From contig NZ_JAUEQY010000003.1 in the NCBI RefSeq assembly GCF_030406325.1, forward strand, positions 1 through 64,000: a stretch of DNA of 64,000 nt. Reading direction: 5' to 3'. Within the stretch, counting starts at the first letter, position 1. Each line of letters begins with the position of its first letter. Shown piece by piece: positions 1 to 9,218 of this stretch. A program made the translations under genes and the position numbers. Below the pieces are notes generated by a model. The model did no database searches, was not told the DNA's origin, and worked only from the letters and a program-made list of their open reading frames with translations. This stretch comes from Actinomadura sp. DC4 (lineage in GTDB: Bacteria; Actinomycetota; Actinomycetes; Streptosporangiales; Streptosporangiaceae).

Positions 1-635
1 GCTCGTCCGATCTCCCGCCGCGGCCTCGGCCCGCGGCGGGCGACCAGGCCGCGGCGGTACGCCGCGCGCTCGAGGCCGCCGGCCGGGCCGGGGACGCGGA
101 GGTCGCGCTGTTCTCCCTGCACAGTGTCGTACGGCTCGGCGCCGCCGAGACGGTGGCCGGGCGGCTGGCCGACGGCGCCGGCGGCGCGCTCGCGAGGCTG
201 TTCGCCCGGCACGCGGAGGCGAGCGCGGGCGAGGACGGCGGCGCGCTGCGGGCGGTCGCGCGGGAGTTCGAGGCGCTGGGCCTGATCCTCTACGCGGCCG
301 AGGCGCAGGCCCAGGCCGCCCGCGCGTACCGGCGGGCGGGCGAACACCGGCAGGCCAAGGCCGCCGCCGCGACCGGCTGGACGCTCAGCCACCGCTGCGA
401 GGGCGCGCGCACACCCGCGCTGGCCGAGCTGACCGCGCCCGAGCTGACCCTCCGGCAGCTGGAGATCGCGCGGCTGGCCGCCGCCGGGCTGAGCAACCGC
501 GCGATCGCCGAACGGCTCACCGTCTCGATCCGCACGGTCGCCAACCACCTGTGCGGCGCGTACGAGCGGCTCGGCGTCAACGACCGCGCGGGCCTGGCCC
601 GCCTGCTCGCCGGGGTGGAGCGCCGTGTCGCCTGA
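1..635 (+). CDS. LuxR-family transcriptional regulator, C-terminal part (cut by left edge)
   Basis: The frame is open from base 3 to the TGA at 633-635, so the gene begins outside the window; the GTG at 153 is only an internal start candidate. The last ~65 residues form a LuxR/NarL helix-turn-helix: LTLRQLEIARLAAAGLSNRAIAERL, then SIRTVANHL and a YERLGV ending. The preceding Ala/Arg-rich helical part resembles the TPR-like tail of large LAL-type regulators, but no ATPase domain is visible here, so that placement is inference. A palindrome lies 6 bp downstream, in front of the next gene, and recurs before lanA; this regulator is the natural candidate to bind it. Confidence 0.85.
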   Translation, partial: SSDLPPRPRPAAGDQAAAVRRALEAAGRAGDAEVALFSLHSVVRLGAAETVAGRLADGAGGALARLFARHAEASAGEDGGALRAVAREFEALGLILYAAEAQAQAARAYRRAGEHRQAKAAAATGWTLSHRCEGARTPALAELTAPELTLRQLEIARLAAAGLSNRAIAERLTVSIRTVANHLCGAYERLGVNDRAGLARLLAGVERRVA

Positions 636-640
636 GGGAT

Positions 641-660
641 CTGAGTACGGCCCTACTCAG
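641..660. promoter_or_regulatory. Palindrome TGAGTA-N6-TACTCA, candidate operator A
   Basis: CTGAGTA (641-647) and TACTCAG (654-660) are perfect 7-bp inverted arms around a 6-base centre. It is centred about 70 bp before the ATG at 721. Nearly the same element occurs at 3291-3309, upstream of lanA. Inference: operator of a dimeric regulator, most simply the adjacent LuxR protein. Confidence 0.6.
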
Positions 661-720
661 GCGCCCCGGTACGGCCGCGGCGACCGTGGAACCCCACCCC
701 CGCACCGGCGAGGAGCGGCC

Positions 721-1449
721 ATGCCGAACATCAAGATCGCGATCTTCAACCTCAGCACCGTACTCACCGACGAGCAGGTCCGGCAGGCGGTGCCCGCGCT
801 GCAGACCCAGATCACGCGCGACTTCGCCCCCGTCTGGGGCATCGACGGCGAACTGGTCTTCGTGCCGCACGGGTCCCCTCCGCCGCGGACCATGTGGTGG
901 CTGGGCGTCTTCGACGACTCCGACGTCGCGGGCGCGCTCGGCTACCACGACCTCACCCCGCAGGGACGGCCGCTCGGCAAGGTCTTCGCCGCGACCGACC
1001 TGCGCACCGGGCACAGCTGGACCGTGACCATGAGCCACGAGCTGCTGGAGATGCTCGCCGACCCGGACGTCAACCTCACGGTGTTCGTCCAGAACAGCGC
1101 CTCGACGGGTCGGCTGTACGCGTACGAGTCCTGCGACGCGTGCGAGGCCGAGGAGTTCGCGTACCGGATCGACGGGACGCTGGTGAGCGACTTCGTCCAC
1201 CCGTCCTGGTTCCAGGAGCACGCGCGCACGGGCACCCGGTTCGACCACGCCGGCAAGATCAAGGCTCCACTGCAGCTGCTGCCCGGCGGCTACATCGGCG
1301 TGTTCGACCTGGTGTGCGGGGGCTGGACCCAGCTCCACCCCGCCGGGGCGCAGCTCGCCTACACCGACCGGCCCCGCGTGGGCAGCCGCCGCGAACGACG
1401 GCGCACCCCGCGGGACCAGTGGCAGCTCAGCGCCGTGGAAACGGCCTGA
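721..1449 (+). CDS. Conserved protein of unknown function with HExxE motif
   Basis: A 242-residue protein. ATG 721 is preferred over the in-frame GTG at 625 because GAGGAG (710-715) sits 5 bases upstream and because MPNIKIAIFNLST looks like a natural beta-strand N-terminus. Visible motifs are SHELLEMLADP (His106-Glu107-x-x-Glu110), reminiscent of metal-binding HExxH/HExxE sites, and ESCDACE with Cys138 and Cys141. I recall similar proteins in varied bacteria but no established function. There is no signal peptide or membrane segment, so it is probably cytoplasmic. The upstream palindrome is shared with the lanthipeptide operon, so a role in peptide maturation is possible but unproven. Confidence 0.7.
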   Translation: MPNIKIAIFNLSTVLTDEQVRQAVPALQTQITRDFAPVWGIDGELVFVPHGSPPPRTMWWLGVFDDSDVAGALGYHDLTPQGRPLGKVFAATDLRTGHSWTVTMSHELLEMLADPDVNLTVFVQNSASTGRLYAYESCDACEAEEFAYRIDGTLVSDFVHPSWFQEHARTGTRFDHAGKIKAPLQLLPGGYIGVFDLVCGGWTQLHPAGAQLAYTDRPRVGSRRERRRTPRDQWQLSAVETA

Positions 1450-1457
1450 GCCAGGCG

Positions 1458-1499
1458 CCGGTGGAACCCACCGCACGGGGGTTCGGCGGGTTCCACCGG
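1458..1499. terminator. 12-bp perfect inverted repeat between convergent genes
   Basis: CCGGTGGAACCC (1458-1469) and GGGTTCCACCGG (1488-1499) pair perfectly around an 18-base loop. They sit between the stop of the HExxE gene (1449) and the stop of the minus-strand gene (1516). Likely a bidirectional terminator without a T-tract, as is usual in high-GC actinomycetes. Confidence 0.65.
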
Positions 1500-1515
1500 T
1501 TCCGTCGCGTGCCGT

Positions 1516-1953
1516 TCACAGGGTGATCCAGTCGGTGGTCAGGGGACCCGCGCCGGGAGCGCGGACGAGCAGGCTGAACGGGCCGGGCGCCAGGCGCGGG
1601 AAGCCGAAGCGGCCCAATCCATCGGCCACGGTGATCGCGGAGCGCGGCCCGCGAACCGTGATCTCCGCGGGCCCCGCCGGCGTGAGCCGCCCCACGAGCG
1701 ACAGGCCCGGCCCGCGCGGCGTCACCTCCACGTCCACGCTCAGCATGGCGGCGTCGAAGGTGAACAGCCGGACTCGCGTGCCGCCCCGTACGGCGGCCGG
1801 TGCGGTGCCCGAGTCGAAGGTCACCTCGGCGAGCTCGGCGCCCGGCATCCGCACGGCGTACGCGACGACGGCGGTCTCCAGCAGCCCGGCCGTCACCGGG
1901 TCGAACAGCCGGGCCGCACGGCGAAGTGACCGCTGGAGGTCGTCCGCGTCCAC
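1516..1953 (-). CDS. Sigma-factor-partner-like protein, paralogue 1
   Basis: 145 residues starting at GTG 1953 (MDADDLQRSLRRAARLFDPV). It is clearly paralogous to the gene at 2837-3274: both share FDPV near residue 20, a TFDS segment, a PAGPAEI/PPGPAEI motif, a DxLGRF motif and a TDWI ending. The second half looks like a beta-sandwich (transthyretin/carboxypeptidase-regulatory type). In actinomycetes proteins of this shape commonly sit beside ECF sigma genes, sometimes with CHAT proteases; no CHAT gene is present here. Function is unknown; a role in sigma control is inference from the neighbouring paralogue. Confidence 0.65.
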   Translation of the reverse strand: MDADDLQRSLRRAARLFDPVTAGLLETAVVAYAVRMPGAELAEVTFDSGTAPAAVRGGTRVRLFTFDAAMLSVDVEVTPRGPGLSLVGRLTPAGPAEITVRGPRSAITVADGLGRFGFPRLAPGPFSLLVRAPGAGPLTTDWITL

Positions 1954-1984
1954 CGGGGCCGCCCACCACGCTCGCCGCGCGCCC

Positions 1985-2098
1985 TCAGGCCCCGGGCCGC
2001 CGCCGGTGGCCGTCCGGGACGACCGGACTCCCCGCGAGCACCGCCGTCCCGGGCGTCTGCCGCGTCGTCCCCGGCCGCCCGACGAGTCTTCCGCTCAT
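1985..2098 (-). CDS. Putative 37-residue ORF upstream of partner paralogue 1
   Basis: ATG 2098 follows GAGGGAG at a good distance, and the frame runs 37 codons to a stop 31 bases before the start of the 1953 gene. The peptide is Gly/Pro/Arg-rich (MSGRLVGRPGTTRQTPG start) with no recognised motif, hydrophobic stretch or Cys. A TATACC -10-like box lies about 25 bases upstream. It could be a small protein, a leader ORF, or merely the 5' untranslated part of the downstream gene. Confidence 0.35.
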   Translation of the reverse strand: MSGRLVGRPGTTRQTPGTAVLAGSPVVPDGHRRRPGA

Positions 2099-2151
2099 GA
2101 CGATCTCCCTCGGTGTTCCGGCCCTCTTGGTATAGAGAGCGCGCCGGGGCC

Positions 2152-2200
2152 CGCGTGATACGCGTGGACGGAAGACGGGTCCCAATCCCGCCACGGCGGG
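2152..2200. promoter_or_regulatory. Two small palindromes in the divergent sigma/partner promoter region
   Basis: CGCGT-GAT-ACGCG (2152-2164) and CCCGCC-AC-GGCGGG (2187-2200) lie between the minus-strand start at 2098 and the sigma start at 2251. A TACGAT -10-like hexamer follows near 2212. They may be operators or the sigma factor's own promoter context; no specific protein can be assigned. Confidence 0.3.
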
Positions 2201-2250
2201 TGGTGATCCGCCTACGATGAAGCTCCCCCGACCGCGAGGAAGACATCGCC

Positions 2251-2850
2251 GTGCGTACCGATGACGTCGGCGGCCTGGTGCTGGCCGCGGCCCGAGGCGA
2301 CGCCGCCTCGTGGCGTGCGCTCGTCGAGCGGTTCAGCGGTCTCGTCTGGTCGGTCGCGCGAGGCCACGGCCTGGCCAACGCCGACGCGGAAGAGGTCTAC
2401 CAGACCACCTGGCTGCGGTTCGCCGAGCACGTCGGCCGGCTCAAGGAGCCCGAACGCGCGGGCGCGTGGCTGGCCACCACGGCGCGGCACGAGTGCTTCC
2501 GCATCTCCCGCGCTCGGACGCGCGTGGACCTGACCGACGACCTGGACGGCCTCGCGCCGCAGGTCGACGAGCACTCCCCCGAGGCCGCCGTGGTCGCGTC
2601 CGAGGAGACCGCCGACGAGCTGGAGCTGCTGCGCGGCCTGTGGGAGTCCTTCCACGAACTGCCGACGCGCTGCCTGCGACTGCTCCGCGCGCTGCTGGCC
2701 TCGCCGCCGCCGAGCTACGCCGAGATCGCGGCCGCCTTCGAAATGCCCGTCGGCAGCATCGGGCCGACGCGCGCCCGCTGCCTGGGCCGTCTGCGCGACC
2801 TGCTGGCCGAGCGCGGCATCCACGGGGAGGCCGGTCATCGACGAGTCTGA
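2251..2850 (+). CDS. ECF RNA polymerase sigma factor
   Basis: 199 residues. Region 2 (about 20-90) shows ALVERFSGLVWSVARG, DAEEVYQTTWLRF and AWLATTARHECFR; region 4 (about 130-190) shows LPTRCLRLLRALL and a YAEIAAAFEMPVGSIGPTRARCLGRLR helix-turn-helix. The order and length are typical of ECF (group IV) sigma factors, and no membrane segment is present. GTG 2251 follows CGAGGAAG. The stop overlaps the beginning of the downstream partner gene (14 bases if that starts at 2837), implying translational coupling. No conventional anti-sigma gene is adjacent; the partner protein may fill that role (inference). Confidence 0.88.
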   Translation: MRTDDVGGLVLAAARGDAASWRALVERFSGLVWSVARGHGLANADAEEVYQTTWLRFAEHVGRLKEPERAGAWLATTARHECFRISRARTRVDLTDDLDGLAPQVDEHSPEAAVVASEETADELELLRGLWESFHELPTRCLRLLRALLASPPPSYAEIAAAFEMPVGSIGPTRARCLGRLRDLLAERGIHGEAGHRRV

Positions 2851-3274
2851 GCTCTCCGCGCTGGAGGCCCGGCTGCGGCGGGCCGCCGAGGTCTTCGACC
2901 CGGTCCCCCCACACCTGACCGACACCGCCCTCGCCGCGTTCTCCTTCCGTACGCTCGACGCCGAGCTGGCCCGGCTCACCTTCGACTCGCTGGTCGAGGG
3001 CGCCGGAACCGTCCGCGGCGACGGGCCGCGGGTGCTGACCTTCACCGGCGAGACGACCACCGTCGAGGTGGAGGTGGCCGGGGGCCGGCTCGTCGGCCAG
3101 GTGCTGCCTCCCGGGCCGGCCGAGATCGAGGTCCGCTCCGCGGAGGGCACGACCGGCGTGCCGGCCGACGACCTCGGCCGCTTCACGGTCGCGTCGGCCG
3201 CCGGCCCGTTCAGCCTGCGCCTCCGCCTCGCCGGGGACCGCACCGTCGTCACCGACTGGATCTCAGGTCACTGA
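2837..3274 (+). CDS. Sigma-factor partner protein, paralogue 2, with apparent ATC start
   Basis: The coding frame, judged by similarity to the 1516-1953 paralogue, begins at IDESELSALEARLRRAAEVFDPV. That point has GGGGAGG (2824-2830), six spacer bases, then ATC (2837) where a start codon should be. No ATG, GTG or TTG occurs in frame before the GTG at 3032, and starting there would remove the conserved N-terminal half. Either ATC is a rare non-canonical start, translation depends on the overlapping sigma gene, or a base is wrong. The protein would be ~145 residues with the same beta-rich C-terminal half (PPGPAEIEVRS, DDLGRFTV, VVTDWI). Confidence 0.6.
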   Translation: MDESELSALEARLRRAAEVFDPVPPHLTDTALAAFSFRTLDAELARLTFDSLVEGAGTVRGDGPRVLTFTGETTTVEVEVAGGRLVGQVLPPGPAEIEVRSAEGTTGVPADDLGRFTVASAAGPFSLRLRLAGDRTVVTDWISGH

Positions 3275-3290
3275 CCCTTGTGACGGGCGA

Positions 3291-3309
3291 ATGAGTAGGG
3301 GCTACTCAT
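3291..3309. promoter_or_regulatory. Palindrome TGAGTA-N5-TACTCA, candidate operator B (lan operon)
   Basis: ATGAGTA (3291-3297) and TACTCAT (3303-3309) are perfect arms around GGGGC, centred ~106 bp before lanA. The core hexamers are identical to those at 641-660. Two copies in 3 kb, each in front of a plus-strand transcription unit, support a shared regulator. Confidence 0.62.
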
Positions 3310-3405
3310 GTGACATGTGCCGGTGAACAGGCACCTTGAGGGGACCTGCCGATCGGCGGGGAAACGGGGGCCGAAAATCCCCGACCATCCGTAAGGAGCC
3401 GTTCC

Positions 3406-3546
3406 ATGTCACGTCTGCTCGAACTCCAGAAAATGGCGCTGGACAAGGCGCTGGGCGACGACCCGACGCCGATGAGCGCCACCTCCTGCTACGCCAACAG
3501 CTGCATCGGGGCCGAGGAGCAGCCGCCCGAGACGCTGCCCGAGTAA
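3406..3546 (+). CDS. Class III lanthipeptide precursor peptide (LanA)
   Basis: A 46-residue ORF with AAGGAG (3393-3398) seven bases before ATG 3406. The leader begins MSRLLELQKMALDKALG and carries the LLELQ motif (residues 4-8), the helix signature recognised by class III LanKC enzymes. The acidic/Pro junction is GDDP (17-20). The core holds T21, S24, T26, S27, C28, S32 and C33 (TPMSATSCYANSC). After it comes an acidic Pro/Glu tail ending at residue 46 with only one more Thr. S24-A-T-S27 followed by Cys at 28 or 33 fits the S-x-x-S-(x)n-C labionin/lanthionine pattern. The LanKC start lies 38 bases downstream, so the two form an operon. The exact ring topology and leader cleavage site are not visible. 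Confidence 0.85.
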   Translation: MSRLLELQKMALDKALGDDPTPMSATSCYANSCIGAEEQPPETLPE

Positions 3547-3584
3547 CCGTCCATTCCGTTAGACGCAGACGAGGAGGCCGGGCC

Positions 3585-6287
3585 GTGCATTCATGGGATG
3601 CCATCGATCGGTACAGTCAATTCCACCCCAGGTGGTTCGAATCCGCTCACCGGTATACCCCGGCCCCGGCCTACCTCGCCGTCTACCGGTCGCTCGTGCC
3701 GGCGTCGTGGCGGCTGGAGCGCAGCGGCATCTGGTACGTCGCGACGCCGCCGGGCGTGCTCCTCGCCGAGCAGGGCTGGAAGCTGCACGTCTCGGCGGCC
3801 AGTGCCCGGTCGGCCGAGGTCCTGCGGCGGATCCTGCCGATCCTGCGCGACCACCGGGTGCCCTTCAAGTTCCTGGTCGACCCGCGCACCACGGCGCGGG
3901 TCAACGGCAAGCTGTGGCCGCGCAGCGCCGGCGGGAAGTTCGTCGCCGTCTACCCGGAGACGTCCGGAGAGTTCCACCGGATCGGCGGCCTGCTCGCCGA
4001 GGCCCTGGAGGGCGAGGCCGGGCCGTACGTCCTCTCCGACCGCCGCTGGCCCGGGTCGCGGTCGGTCTTCTACCGGTACGGCGGCTTCCAGGCGCGGTCG
4101 CGGCTGCGGATCGACGGCCGACGCGACCTGCTCATCACCACGCCCTCCGGGGAACGGGTCAAGGACGGCCGGCTGCCGTACTGGAGCCCGCCGGAGTGGG
4201 TCACCGCGCCGTTCCCCGACGATGAGTCCACCGACGGGGCCGGGGTCCTGTGCGGCGGACGCTTCTCGGTGGAGTCGGCGCTGAGCTTCAGCAACGGCGG
4301 CGGCGTCTACCGGGCGACCGACCACCACACCGGCCGTGAGGTCGTGCTCAAGGAGGCGCGCCCCGGCGTCGAGATCGGGCGGCGCGGGCTGGACGCGGTC
4401 GCCGTGCTGGAGAAGGAGTACCGCCTGCTCGGCCGGCTCGCCGGCACCGGCTACTTCGTCCGGCCGATCGCGTTCTTCCGCGAGTCCGAGCACGCGTTCC
4501 TGGCCGAGGAGTTCGTCCCCGGCGGCCACCTCGGAAAGGCGACCGTCACGCGGAACCCCCTGTACGTCGGCCCGCCGACCACTGAGGCGTTCGCGGGCTA
4601 CCTCGCGTCGATGCGCGGGCTCTGGACGCAGATCGCGCGGGCCATCGCCGCCGCGCACCGCGAGGGCGTCGTGCTGGCCGACCTGTCCTTCACCAACATC
4701 ATGGTCGACGGCGACCGCGTCCGGATCGTCGACCTGGAGGCCGGCGCGGAGGAGACGGACGAGCAGCTCGGCCTGCACACCCAGGGCTTCGCCAGCCCCC
4801 GCGTGCTGCGGACCGGGGCCGGCGGGCCGGCCGACGACCACTACGCGCTCGGCGGGATCATCTTCGGCAGTCTGATGCTGGCCACCGGCCTGACCGGATT
4901 CCATCCACCGGCCCGGCGGCGCTTCCTGGACGAGCTCACCGAGGACATGGGCCTGCCCGCCGCGCTGGGCGCGCTGGTCGACCGGCTGATGGAGCCGTCC
5001 GGGCCGTACGAGGACTCCGTAGCCGAGGCGATCGCGAAGCTGCCGGTGGAGACAAGGCCCGCGCGGCTGGCCGTACCGGCCGGCCGGCGCCTCGCCCCTC
5101 CCCACCGGGCGCCGCTCCGCAAGCGCGTGGCCGAGACGCTGGAGGGGATCACCTCATACATCCACGCCGTCGCCGACACGGCGCGGGAGGACCGGCTGTT
5201 CCCCGCGGACCTCATGGTCTTCGAGTCCAACCCGCTGTCGGTCGCCTTCGGCGCCGCCGGGGTCCTGCACGCGCTGCACCACGTCGAGGGCGGCGTGCCG
5301 GGCCGGCTGGAGGCCTGGATGCTTTCCCGTACGGCCGCCGGCGACGCGTACGCGCCGAGCCTGTACTTCGGGCAGTCCGGGATCGCGTGGGTGCTCGCCG
5401 AGCTCGGCCACACCGAGGCCGCGGCCGACCTGCTCATCCGGGCGTCGGAGCATCCGCTGCTGCACGAGTCCCCCGACCTGCTGCGCGGCGCGGCCGGGCA
5501 CGGGATGGCCTGCCTCAAGCTGTGGAAAATGACCGGCGACGAGCGGTTCCTGGACGGGGCGCGCGCCGTCGGGCGGCACCTGATGGACTCGTGCGTACGC
5601 GACGAGCGCGGCGTGCGCTGGGCCACGGCCGGAGACCTCGCGCGGATCGGCTACGCGTACGGCGGCAGCGGCCCGTCGCTGTTCCTGCTCTACCTGCACC
5701 TGGCCACGGGCGCGGCCGAACCGCTCGCGTACGGGCGCGCGGCCCTCGACTTCGAGCTCGCGCAGAGCGCCTGGGTGGACGGCCGGTTCTGCGGCTTTCC
5801 CGACCACGAGAGCGAGCAGCCGGACAAGGCGCCGGTGCTGCGGTGCTACTGGGACTCCGGCTCGGCCGGCGTCGGCACCACTCTCGTACGGTATCTGCGG
5901 GTCACCGGCGACCCCGCCCTGCGAGGGCGGCTGACCGGCCTGGTGACGGACGCGAGCCGGAAGTACACCGTGTCGCCGCAGCTCTTCCACGGGCTGGCGG
6001 GGCTGGGCAACTTCCTGCTCGACGTGTGGGAGCACACCGGCTCGGAGGACCATCTGGCGGAGGCGTGGCAGGTCGCCGAGGGCGCGCTGCTGTTCCGGAT
6101 CGAGCGCCCGGAGGGGATCGCGTTCCCGGGCGAGCAGGCCGCGCGGGAGAGCACGGACCTCGCCACGGGAAGCGCGGGCGTCGGCCTGTTCCTGCACCGG
6201 CTGCTGACCGCCGGGCCGAACCTCAACTTCGTCGTCGACGAGCTCCTGCCGGAGCCCCCGCGGCTCAGGTCTCGTGCAGGTGGGTGA
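3585..6287 (+). CDS. lanKC: Class III lanthionine synthetase LanKC
   Basis: 900 residues; GTG 3585 follows GAGGAG (3571-3576). Three domains are visible. A lyase-type N-terminus covers about 1-210 (WDAIDRYSQFHPRWFESAHRYTP is diagnostic of LanKC). A Ser/Thr-kinase-like domain covers about 220-500: Gly loop SFSNGGGVY ~234, Lys in VVLKEARP ~256, LADLSFTNIMV ~364 and VDLE in place of DFG ~382. A LanC-like cyclase covers about 540-890: GHGMACL ~638, CYWDSGSAG ~754, LFHGLAG ~800. The lyase/kinase pair phosphorylates and eliminates Ser/Thr of LanA, and the cyclase adds Cys thiols. The LanC zinc ligands (WCYG and CHG cysteines) are replaced, as is usual for class III. No transporter or dedicated protease gene is adjacent. 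Confidence 0.92.
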   Translation: MHSWDAIDRYSQFHPRWFESAHRYTPAPAYLAVYRSLVPASWRLERSGIWYVATPPGVLLAEQGWKLHVSAASARSAEVLRRILPILRDHRVPFKFLVDPRTTARVNGKLWPRSAGGKFVAVYPETSGEFHRIGGLLAEALEGEAGPYVLSDRRWPGSRSVFYRYGGFQARSRLRIDGRRDLLITTPSGERVKDGRLPYWSPPEWVTAPFPDDESTDGAGVLCGGRFSVESALSFSNGGGVYRATDHHTGREVVLKEARPGVEIGRRGLDAVAVLEKEYRLLGRLAGTGYFVRPIAFFRESEHAFLAEEFVPGGHLGKATVTRNPLYVGPPTTEAFAGYLASMRGLWTQIARAIAAAHREGVVLADLSFTNIMVDGDRVRIVDLEAGAEETDEQLGLHTQGFASPRVLRTGAGGPADDHYALGGIIFGSLMLATGLTGFHPPARRRFLDELTEDMGLPAALGALVDRLMEPSGPYEDSVAEAIAKLPVETRPARLAVPAGRRLAPPHRAPLRKRVAETLEGITSYIHAVADTAREDRLFPADLMVFESNPLSVAFGAAGVLHALHHVEGGVPGRLEAWMLSRTAAGDAYAPSLYFGQSGIAWVLAELGHTEAAADLLIRASEHPLLHESPDLLRGAAGHGMACLKLWKMTGDERFLDGARAVGRHLMDSCVRDERGVRWATAGDLARIGYAYGGSGPSLFLLYLHLATGAAEPLAYGRAALDFELAQSAWVDGRFCGFPDHESEQPDKAPVLRCYWDSGSAGVGTTLVRYLRVTGDPALRGRLTGLVTDASRKYTVSPQLFHGLAGLGNFLLDVWEHTGSEDHLAEAWQVAEGALLFRIERPEGIAFPGEQAARESTDLATGSAGVGLFLHRLLTAGPNLNFVVDELLPEPPRLRSRAGG

Positions 6288-7233
6288 CCGCCGCCTGAAG
6301 CTCCTGCCACGCCTCTTCCTTGTCGGCGGAGCGGTCGTGGGGCACGCGGAACTCCTCGATGTAGAGGGACACCTCTTCGAGGTCCCAGCGAAGAGCGTAG
6401 AGCGCGAGAGCCGGGGCACCGGGCGTACGGCCGGTGGCCTCGGCGTACCGCTCCAGGTCCTCGGGGGTCTCCGCGACGGACCACAGGTCGCGTTCGGGCG
6501 GGGCGAGGCCGACCGTGTCCCAGTCGACCAGCAGGAGGCGGCCCTCGGACTCCAGGAGGTTGCCCGGATGCGGCTCGCCGTGGGTGAGGACGGGCGGAAT
6601 GCCCTTCACGTCCTCGGCCAGCCGGTCGTACTCCTCGATCCGCCGCCGTATCGCGGGGGTGTGCTCGGCCAGCAGGGCCCGTGCGGGCGCGGCGAACGGT
6701 CCGCCCTCCCAGCGGATCTCGTCGTCCAGGGCGCTGAGCAGGAGGCCGCGCATCGACAGCCCGAGGTCGAGCACCGGCGCCTCCGCCGGTGGTGCCTGCC
6801 GGTGCAGCTCGGCGAGCAGGTCCAGGACGGCGGCGCGTTCGCCGGCGGTCTGCGGCCGGTCGGCGTCTCCGGAGATCCCGGCCACGAAGGGGAAGACGCT
6901 GACGGCGTAGCGGGGGCCGAGCCGGCGGACGGTCTCGCCGCCCTCGGTGCGCAGCGGCGCCACCACGAAGTCCAGGTGCCCGCCGTCGTGCAGCGCCGCG
7001 GCGGTGTCCATGGCCTGGCACAGGCTCCGCAGAGCCGCCTGCACGCCCTGCCCGCCCTTGACCTCCAGGTCGGCGACGGTGACGAACCACTCGTCCCCGG
7101 CCGCTCCGGCCGCGAACCAGTGATGATCACCGAACCCGACCGGGGCGTACTCCACCGAGGCCGCGCCGATCCCCCACGCGTCCAGGGCCCGGAGCAGGTG
7201 TTTCTCGTCAAGATCTTCCGGTCGGGTCCTCAC
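6265..7233 (-). CDS. Aminoglycoside-phosphotransferase-family kinase
   Basis: 322 residues with the APH/choline-kinase fold. The catalytic loop is LTHGEPHPGNLL (HGxxHxxN, ~216-227) and the metal-binding motif LLLVDWDTVGLAPPERDLW (~232-250). The N-terminal lobe has YAPVGFGDHHWFA and DEWFVTVADLE, resembling spectinomycin- or homoserine-kinase-like members. It may phosphorylate a small hydroxylated or aminocyclitol substrate; resistance cannot be inferred from sequence alone. Its 3' end overlaps the lanKC 3' end by 23 bases on the opposite strand, so no terminator separates them. Confidence 0.8.
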   Translation of the reverse strand: MRTRPEDLDEKHLLRALDAWGIGAASVEYAPVGFGDHHWFAAGAAGDEWFVTVADLEVKGGQGVQAALRSLCQAMDTAAALHDGGHLDFVVAPLRTEGGETVRRLGPRYAVSVFPFVAGISGDADRPQTAGERAAVLDLLAELHRQAPPAEAPVLDLGLSMRGLLLSALDDEIRWEGGPFAAPARALLAEHTPAIRRRIEEYDRLAEDVKGIPPVLTHGEPHPGNLLESEGRLLLVDWDTVGLAPPERDLWSVAETPEDLERYAEATGRTPGAPALALYALRWDLEEVSLYIEEFRVPHDRSADKEEAWQELQAAVTHLHET

Positions 7234-7278
7234 GGCGGATCACGTTAGGCGGTCCCCGGCGATTCCGCACCGCAATAT

Positions 7279-7701
7279 TCACGGCCCCCGAAGCAGCGCG
7301 CCGACGAGGGCGCCGAAGGCCGCGTGGTCGAGCCACTGCGGCCACCGGGGCAGGGCACGGATCGCCGGGTAGCGGCGGCCGGCCAGCTCCAGGTCCAGCG
7401 CCGCCACGCACAGGCCCGCCGCGCCTCCGCCGAGCGGGCCGAGACGGTGCCGGCGGTCGGCGGCGGCCAGCACCGCCGTCCAGCCCGCCGAGACGGCGAG
7501 GTGCACGGCCACGCCGGCCAGAACGCCGGGCCGGTCCCGGCGGCCGGGCACGAGCGTGCCGGCCGCGCGGGTCGCCTGCAGCGGGTCGGCCCCGGTCGCC
7601 AGCGCGTGCACCGTCGACGGCAGGCCCGCGCCCAGCGCGGCGACCGTCCCCGCCACCACGACCCGGCGGGGCGGGACCAAGGAGAACACCATGAGGGCCA
7701 T
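7279..7701 (-). CDS. Small membrane protein, function unknown
   Basis: 140 residues, mostly hydrophobic, with about four potential membrane helices (VVVAGTVAALGAGLPSTVHAL, LAGVAVHLAVSAGWTAVLAA, GAAGLCVAALDLELAG, AAFGALVGALL). ATG 7701 or 7692 could be the start. The gene diverges from the MerR gene and their starts are 64 bp apart, so the MerR operator could also affect it. I do not recognise the family. Confidence 0.6.
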   Translation of the reverse strand: MALMVFSLVPPRRVVVAGTVAALGAGLPSTVHALATGADPLQATRAAGTLVPGRRDRPGVLAGVAVHLAVSAGWTAVLAAADRRHRLGPLGGGAAGLCVAALDLELAGRRYPAIRALPRWPQWLDHAAFGALVGALLRGP

Positions 7702-7728
7702 CCTCCACCGGCTGCGGGACCGTGTGCC

Positions 7729-7759
7729 TTGACTTGAAGCGCTTCAAGTGCCGGAGACT
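7729..7759 (+). promoter_or_regulatory. MerR-type promoter with 19-bp spacer and perfect operator
   Basis: TTGACT (-35, 7729-7734) and GAGACT (-10, 7754-7759) are separated by 19 bp, the overlong spacing typical of promoters activated by MerR-family proteins. The perfect 18-bp palindrome ACTTGAAGCGCTTCAAGT (7732-7749) lies in the spacer. The predicted transcription start falls on or next to ATG 7766, implying a leaderless mRNA. Confidence 0.78.
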
Positions 7760-7765
7760 GAGGTC

Positions 7766-8206
7766 ATGACAGAGGTCAGCGACACCCCGGGCCTGACGAT
7801 CCAGGAGGTGTCGAGGCTGAGCGGGCTGCCGGAGCCGACCCTGCGGTACTACGAGCGGATCGGCCTGATCGACGCCGTGGACCGCGACGAGAGCAGCGGT
7901 CACCGGCGCTACGGCCCGGCCGTCGTCGCGCGGGCCGAGGCGCTGGGCTGCCTGCGGTCCAGCGGGACGAGCGTGCGGGACATGCGCGCCTACCTTCGCC
8001 ACCTCGACACGGGTGACGCGGCGCAGCTGCGCGCGTTGTTCGAGCGCAACGCCGACCGGATCACCGAGGAGATCGAGCGCATGCGGGTCCGGCTGCGCTA
8101 TCTGCGGCTCAAGGCCGACCTGTGGGGCGCGCGGGAGCGCGGCGATCCCGAGGCCGAGCGCGACGCCCGCGTCGAGGTCACACGGGTCATCTCCCAACTA
8201 CACTGA
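7766..8206 (+). CDS. MerR-family transcriptional regulator
   Basis: 146 residues from ATG 7766. The GTG at 7748 is rejected because it lies inside the operator. LTIQEVSRLSGLPEPTLRYYERIGLI and GHRRYG form the MerR winged helix (about 10-75), followed by a dimerisation coiled coil (DTGDAAQLRALFERNADRITEEIERMRVRLRYLRLKADL). No Cys-based metal site is seen, so it is more like the small-molecule-responsive group. The operator in its own promoter predicts autoregulation and control of the SDR gene 13 bases downstream. Confidence 0.85.
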   Translation: MTEVSDTPGLTIQEVSRLSGLPEPTLRYYERIGLIDAVDRDESSGHRRYGPAVVARAEALGCLRSSGTSVRDMRAYLRHLDTGDAAQLRALFERNADRITEEIERMRVRLRYLRLKADLWGARERGDPEAERDARVEVTRVISQLH

Positions 8207-8219
8207 CGACGGGAAAATC

Positions 8220-9218
8220 ATGGATCTTGTACTCGTGACGGGTGGCAGCGGCCACGTGGGATCGCACGCGGTCCGTCATCTGCTCCAGGAGGGCTACCAG
8301 GTACGTACGACGGTCCGCTCCCCCGACCGCGCGGCCGGTGTGCGGGCGACGGCGGCCGGCGACGGCGGAGGGCTCGAGGTCGTCAGTGCCGAGCTGACCT
8401 CCGACGACGGCTGGGCGGAGGCAGTGGCCGGGTGCGCCTACGTCCTCCATGTCGCGTCGCCCTTCCCTGCGGCCCGGCCGGCCGACCCCGACGAGGTCAT
8501 CGTCCCCGCCCGCGACGGCGCGCTCCGCGTCCTGCGGGCCGCGCGCGACGCCGGGGTGAGGCGCGTGGTGCTCACGTCGTCCTTCGCCGCGGTGGGGTAC
8601 ACCCGCAAGGCGAGCGGTGAGTACGACGAGAGCGACTGGACCGACCCCGACGACGACAACTCCCCCTACGTCAGGTCCAAGACCATCGCCGAACGGGCGG
8701 CCTGGGACTTCGTACGGGACGAGGGCGGCGACCTCGAACTCACGGTGATCAACCCTTGCGGGATCTTCGGCCCGCTGCTGGGGCCGCACCTGTCCAGCTC
8801 GACCGGCCTGGTCAAGGCGATGCTGGACGGCGCCATGCCGACCGTGCCCCCGGTGTACTTCGGCGTGGTGGACGTACGCGACGTCGCGGACATCCACGTA
8901 CGGGCCATGCGGCATCCCGCCGCCGGTGGCGAGCGGTTCCTGGCCTGCGGCGGAGAGGCGGTCAGCTTCCTCCAGATGGCACGGACCCTGGCCGAGAACC
9001 TGGGCCCGGCCGCGGCGAAGGTACCGGCGCACGAACTCACCGCCGAGGCGGTACGGGCCGACCCCGCGCTGCGGGAGGCGGCCGGCCGACTCGGCGAGGT
9101 TCCCGTCCTGCGTACGGACAAGGCCCGCGACGTACTCGGCTGGGCGCCGCGCGACCCGGAGACCACGATCGTCGAGACCGCGCGGAGCCTCATCCGCCTG
9201 GGACTCGTCGCGGGCTGA
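8220..9218 (+). CDS. Extended SDR, dihydroflavonol-4-reductase-like NAD(P)-dependent reductase
   Basis: 332 residues; ATG 8220 is only 13 bases after the MerR stop. The Rossmann motif TGGSGHVGS is at ~7-15 and the catalytic YVRSK (YxxxK) at ~150, with the upstream Ser in LTSSFAAVGY. The later NPCGIFGP motif is typical of the DFR/epimerase branch. The likely reaction is NADPH reduction of a ketone or aldehyde. Co-transcription with the MerR gene suggests inducible detoxification, as in many MerR-SDR pairs; the substrate is unknown. Confidence 0.82.
   Translation: MDLVLVTGGSGHVGSHAVRHLLQEGYQVRTTVRSPDRAAGVRATAAGDGGGLEVVSAELTSDDGWAEAVAGCAYVLHVASPFPAARPADPDEVIVPARDGALRVLRAARDAGVRRVVLTSSFAAVGYTRKASGEYDESDWTDPDDDNSPYVRSKTIAERAAWDFVRDEGGDLELTVINPCGIFGPLLGPHLSSSTGLVKAMLDGAMPTVPPVYFGVVDVRDVADIHVRAMRHPAAGGERFLACGGEAVSFLQMARTLAENLGPAAAKVPAHELTAEAVRADPALREAAGRLGEVPVLRTDKARDVLGWAPRDPETTIVETARSLIRLGLVAG

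Follow-up and report, generated by a model that had tools for sequence, protein, structure and literature searches.

A short peptide gene and the lanthionine synthetase gene that follows it in Actinomadura sp. DC4 very probably form a two-gene class III lanthipeptide locus with the chemistry of that class, ring topology apart. The precursor/lanKC pair with its two-Cys core appears to be rare and conserved in few actinobacteria, Streptomyces included. It lies in a stretch of 64,000 nucleotides (hereafter the window) whose first base is also the first base of its contig, in a genome of 10.67 Mb in 101 contigs (Table 1). On every sequence feature tested, the locus agrees with class III membership. 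We put at about even chances that, in the small clade to which the pair belongs, the labionin core SxxSx2-5C has given way to an interlocked SxxSCx3SC core, from which the cyclase makes a topology undescribed for class III, either two thioethers that overlap or a labionin threaded with one more Cys crosslink, and that clade-specific cyclase-domain residues such as R753 and Q799 accompany this change.

Table 1. Features of the putative lanthipeptide locus, in window positions.
Feature	Position	Strand	Remarks
lanA precursor	3406-3546	+	46 aa; LLELQ leader, SATSCYANSC core, 13-residue acidic tail
lanKC, class III lanthionine synthetase	3585-6287	+	900 aa; RamC_N lyase, kinase, LanC-like cyclase
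Palindrome TGAGTA-N5-TACTCA, candidate operator	3292-3308		97 bp 5' of precursor start
Second palindrome copy	642-659		6 bp 3' of the end of a LuxR-HTH gene, before gene 721-1449

The sequence-only reading of this DNA had described the small ORF, its leader, Cys pairs and tail, and a gap of 38 nt to a complete LanKC, and each of these was recovered. The translated ORF reads MSRLLELQKMALDKALGDDPTPMSATSCYANSCIGAEEQPPETLPE, which confirms the core pairs S27-C28 and S32-C33. Its LLELQ is an LxLQ-type leader, as is typical of class III, in a small peptide adjoining lanKC. Shine-Dalgarno-like sequences stand just 5' of both genes (AAGGAG for the precursor, GAGGAGG for lanKC), and GC content by codon position is coding-like in the precursor (0.63/0.48/0.91), resembling that of lanKC (0.74/0.52/0.95). 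Three NCBIfam precursor models were matched, each under its curated cut-off, with for instance 22.6 bits for lanthi_III_c (NF038160, cut-off 27) and 14.1 bits for the SapB/AmfS family (NF033212, cut-off 25); on these scores membership of lanthi_III_c, lanthi_III_a or SapB/AmfS was rejected. The low scores are what speaks for a chance ORF, with the true LanKC substrate encoded elsewhere. We consider this hardly credible in view of the ribosome-binding site, the codon pattern and, above all, the recurrence of leader and core 5' of five further lanKC genes, on which it was rejected.

LanKC scored 764.6 bits with the class III model NF038151 (cut-off 575) and 563 bits with the class IV model NF038150 (cut-off 650). 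Assignment to class IV (LanL) was rejected on the latter score, and the residues at the zinc-ligand positions, D757 and F801, differ as well. Pfam domains RamC_N, Pkinase and LANC_like were identified, and among solved structures the protein matches chains of class III LanKC, PDB 8sao best (E 2.5e-61). Its start was placed at GTG 3585, and the proteins of two relatives (L026 and L027, see below) begin with MHxW at the same position. Residues of the window enzyme, ThurKC and NisC were matched by hand via the alignment of the 8sao search and by motif. The lyase residues given for ThurKC (Lys65, His67, Lys94, Lys108, Lys117, Asp152, Arg163 and Arg191; PMC10604976) correspond to K66, H68, K95, K109, K118, D152, R164 and R196, and the DFE motif named for its kinase (PMC10604976) to D383-L384-E385. 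Where Ser726, Phe770 and Asp771 replace the zinc ligands in ThurKC (PMC10604976), the window enzyme has D757, F801 and H802. Two of the three canonical ligands are thus absent, D757/F801 being the equivalents of NisC C284/C330, and H802 is kept; the zinc-site loss that marks class III is therefore seen here too.

For comparison 92 LanKC loci were collected: the window, five paralogues of its own genome, two Deinococcus plasmids, and 80 plus four from searches. The 80 are the best of 252 relatives, hence a lower bound, obtained by scanning a genome contig collection with short peptide patterns followed by alignment; an earlier pattern scan of that collection had given nine pattern matches and no relative. 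Among these best 80 were two LanKC relatives of 50% identity, from Streptomyces zaomyceticus (L026) and Streptomyces huiliensis (L027). Screening 392 genomes of one genus, with two candidates scored in each, added L106, L107 and L108 at 50-52% and an outgroup, L109, at 38%; we take the genus to be Streptomyces, L108 being close to L027. Along their full length the enzymes of these five relatives are 48-50% identical to that of the window.

The check proposed with the sequence-only reading, whether the small ORF is conserved before orthologous lanKC genes, came out in its favour: a peptide with an LxLQ leader and an S-x-x-S-C-x3-S-C core lies upstream of lanKC in all five relatives, whose enzymes share 48-52% identity with that of the window. 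L107 has two such precursors in tandem, which brings the clade peptides to seven, window included. Within 2.5 kb either side of lanKC, where the sequence has a flank that long, the strict core occurs in 6/6 clade loci and in none of the 86 others; looser Ser/Thr variants turn up in six more loci and, besides the strict core, in L026, all without a leader. Eight positions are invariant over the seven peptides (L5, L7, Q8, S24, S27, C28, S32 and C33). The window precursor finds two of the five relatives' precursors by tblastn at E <= 1e-3 (L027, and L123, which is L108), and the other three were assigned by leader, core pattern and position. The acidic Pro/Glu tail of 13 residues, listed earlier among the unusual points, is real but peculiar to the window strain, the six other peptides having five to ten residues of unlike composition past the last Cys.

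Searches closer to home recovered orthologues in the window's own genome only, be it among eight genomes of its genus (E <= 1e-100), 341 of its family (two candidates scored per genome, E <= 1e-110) or 200 of its order (up to four scored, E <= 1e-100). NF038160 run over 396 genomes of the phylum gave weak matches in 11, the window included, and none over the cut-off. Searched against plasmids, the L027 precursor gave one match, which was unrelated. In the open-licence literature, supplements excluded, to which the word undescribed is confined here, five core sequences found no mention, and Streptomyces zaomyceticus together with lanthipeptide found no match.

In a rapidly built maximum-likelihood tree of the 92 LanKC proteins, a branch with SH-aLRT 100 separates the six SxxSCx3SC-linked enzymes from the others; the core label changes once on this tree versus a mean of 5.9 when shuffled. 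The next set, consisting of Deinococcus L013/L014, Paucisalibacillus L028, Luteibacter L029, Acidimicrobiaceae L033 and L109, joins this clade with support 91, short of the threshold of 95 set by the tool, and several branches within this set are long. All six of its loci have an ordinary SxxSx2-5C core. The five paralogues of the window's own genome are placed elsewhere. Since the clade is single and all six neighbours have SxxSx2-5C, a single origin of the SxxSCx3SC core from this type is probable. Several of the loci collected hold tandem precursor arrays, with five class III precursors in Deinococcus sp. QL22, six in D. gobiensis P4 (two of them annotated) and 11 within the 4 kb before lanKC in Paucisalibacillus (L028).

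Across all 92 aligned proteins D366 and N371 are invariant. The six clade enzymes keep the lyase residues throughout and are invariant at D757 and F801, with L107 as an exception elsewhere, having Arg in place of Lys256 (kinase) and of His802. At 24 positions a residue is invariant in the six and present in less than 5% of the other 86; R753 and Q799 adjoin the former zinc-site motifs and the remaining positions are scattered.

The labionin motif has been defined as S[^C]2S[^C]2-5C and tied to class III synthetases (PMC11251773). None of the seven clade peptides fits it, because a Cys directly follows the second Ser and C28 falls inside the register; a version with Thr for Ser is fitted by the window peptide alone, through T21. 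A leader-based scan of the 86 other loci gave 38 with the Ser motif, six with the Thr version, nine with neither and 33 without a candidate, some of which may be explained by contig ends and the strict leader pattern. Six Streptomyces loci (L073, L077, L082, L090, L096 and L102) have CxSxxS cores, the type termed 'reverse labionin' (PMC11251773). The earlier claim of a class III precursor with its LanKC is accordingly borne out by family scores, catalytic residues, leader and conservation at six loci, and the new ring pattern suggested along with it appears plausible for a core that lacks the canonical motif.

The clade core holds two interleaved registers, position 21/S24/C28 and S24/S27/C33. 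Applied to the window, the hand rule for ring prediction of PMC11251773 gives S24-C28 plus S27-C33, which are overlapping rings; it gives other partners for L106 (S30-C33) and L107 (S25-C28), so the topology does not follow from spacing alone. Judged from these sequences, the likeliest products would carry either a pair of overlapping lanthionines or one labionin plus another crosslink. Our tentative assignment, held with somewhat less than even confidence, is that of two overlapping thioether rings joining C28 to residue 24 and C33 to residue 27, a pattern that may be undescribed. The same locus may instead make an ordinary labionin from S24, S27 and C33, in which case the product would belong to a known ring type and carry one Cys more, with C28 free, disulfide-bonded or linked to S32. 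With five residues between S27 and C33, SxxSx2-5C indeed fits if the internal Cys28 is ignored; moreover, this is the core of all six nearest relatives outside the clade, and paenithopeptins have a labionin within a larger disulfide ring (PMC8960859). Nevertheless we regard this as rather unlikely, given that the published motif bars a Cys inside the register (PMC11251773) and that C28 and S32 are invariant in 7/7 peptides, suggesting that both are used. Finally, T21-x-x-S24-x3-C28 could give a methyl-labionin in the window strain, making its product unlike that of the relatives. This is improbable: position 21 is neither Ser nor Thr in the six other peptides, and C33 would need another partner.

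Biosynthesis would proceed as follows. LanKC would bind the LLELQ leader, phosphorylate Ser/Thr residues of the core and then eliminate the phosphate to yield dehydro residues, to which its metal-independent cyclase domain would add Cys28 and Cys33. Leader and tail would be removed by proteases encoded elsewhere.

The sequence-only reading had called the absence of an adjacent transporter or protease gene unusual. A Pfam scan of nine window proteins up to 8.2 kb (covering neither 7279-7701 nor the gene at 8220) found no transporter or peptidase over the cut-off, and upstream the absence can be judged for 3.4 kb only. As an oddity it carries little weight, because class III clusters of Actinobacteria usually come without a protease gene (PMC7268733; also PMC8960859) and the contig breaks off on the upstream side. 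Leaders of class III are processed by AplP-type M1 proteases that are encoded outside the cluster (PMC10885120). M1-family peptidases are encoded at seven places in the window's genome and a prolyl-oligopeptidase-type gene at one; the latter family was also found in 5/14 control genomes and the former in 8/14, hence M1 presence here says little. As for export, at least two relatives out of five have a transporter gene as a neighbour, namely a convergent ABC exporter in L026 and an MFS gene that overlaps the lanKC end in L107 (read on L122), the neighbours of the other three having been scanned in part.

A comparison of 11 window proteins (3 to 9218) with the loci of 11 relatives found counterparts for the precursor and LanKC only, apart from a weak ECF sigma match in L033. 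Gene 721-1449 was rejected as part of the system, having no homologue near the relatives, and its protein found nothing significant in PDB or PHROGs. It contains the stretch SHELLEMLADP, of which the HE..E...DP part recurs in homologues from Caballeronia, Streptomyces and Rhizobium, the Streptomyces one (L125) lying near a tgmA RiPP precursor gene. On the other side, the minus-strand gene 6265-7233, whose end overlaps that of lanKC by 23 bases, encodes a phosphotransferase like APH(9)-Ib, which by the NCBI rule is not that enzyme (294.7 bits, cut-off 675). Two small genes, 1516-1953 (minus strand) and 2834-3274 (plus strand), flank the ECF sigma gene 2251-2850; their proteins are 45% identical over 140 residues (E 9.8e-28), and the latter gene has no ATG, GTG or TTG near its beginning.

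The two palindrome copies point to possible shared regulation. TGAGTA-N3-8-TACTCA occurs twice in the window and never in 100 shuffles; with one base less per arm, 1/100 shuffles reaches two. Genome-wide, TGAGTA-N4-7-TACTCA has six sites, and the reversed-pattern control has none. The sites of TGAGTA-N4-6-TACTCA are the two in the window and those on L115, L116, L119 and L120, of which that on L116 precedes an ECF sigma gene and that on L119 a weakly matching trypsin-like protein (23.3 of 27.6 bits). No copy was found in the relatives' loci. A search of the open-licence literature for TGAGTAGG with LuxR and Streptomyces returned a Pseudomonas paper. A small strain-specific regulon around the palindrome is plausible, and the window copies may place the precursor under common control with the genes next to 642-659.

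How metal-free LanKC cyclases arrive at lanthionine or labionin is a matter of current study, and residues for it have been proposed (PMC10604976). A natural clade in which both the core and cyclase residues are unlike the rest would offer a direct comparison for this question, and both its seven peptides and its six enzymes are of a length that allows expression. The structure of the product of this conserved pair cannot be read from present rules, and NCBIfam model cut-offs do not name the clade precursors. NF038160 (lanthi_III_c) is the only precursor model matched by all seven peptides at E <= 1, with L026 (17.4 bits) and L027 (18.4 bits) below the cut-off like the window; the other four are presumably below it too, the best E of the seven being 7.3e-5 against 9e-5 for the window. 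The precursor of L030 does pass this model (29.4 bits), but it ends near CC and its LanKC sits in another clade.

Compared with class III systems of the SxxSx2-5C type (labyrinthopeptin, SapB/AmfS, curvopeptin and others), the window locus shares the LxLQ leader, the three-domain LanKC, the cyclase without a canonical zinc site and the precursor directly 5' of lanKC. It differs in its SxxSCx3SC core, in which every Ser register has an internal Cys, and in its separate enzyme clade. The synthetases of the noursin/LanKCHbt group (PMC10206099) are likewise class III enzymes and make crosslinks beyond plain labionin. They use a core His for histidinobutyrine (PMC10206099), however, whereas the window peptide has no His. 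The L026 and L106 cores (SLTSCDHHSC and SLTSCTSHSC) do have His between the Cys, which makes them a place to look for His crosslinks of the noursin type or for metal binding. Peptide T694, in the account given in PMC11251773, is type III-associated, has two Cys and two SC motifs and, like the window peptide, lacks a labionin motif as listed there; the likeness is one of description, and this kind of peptide may have been glimpsed before.
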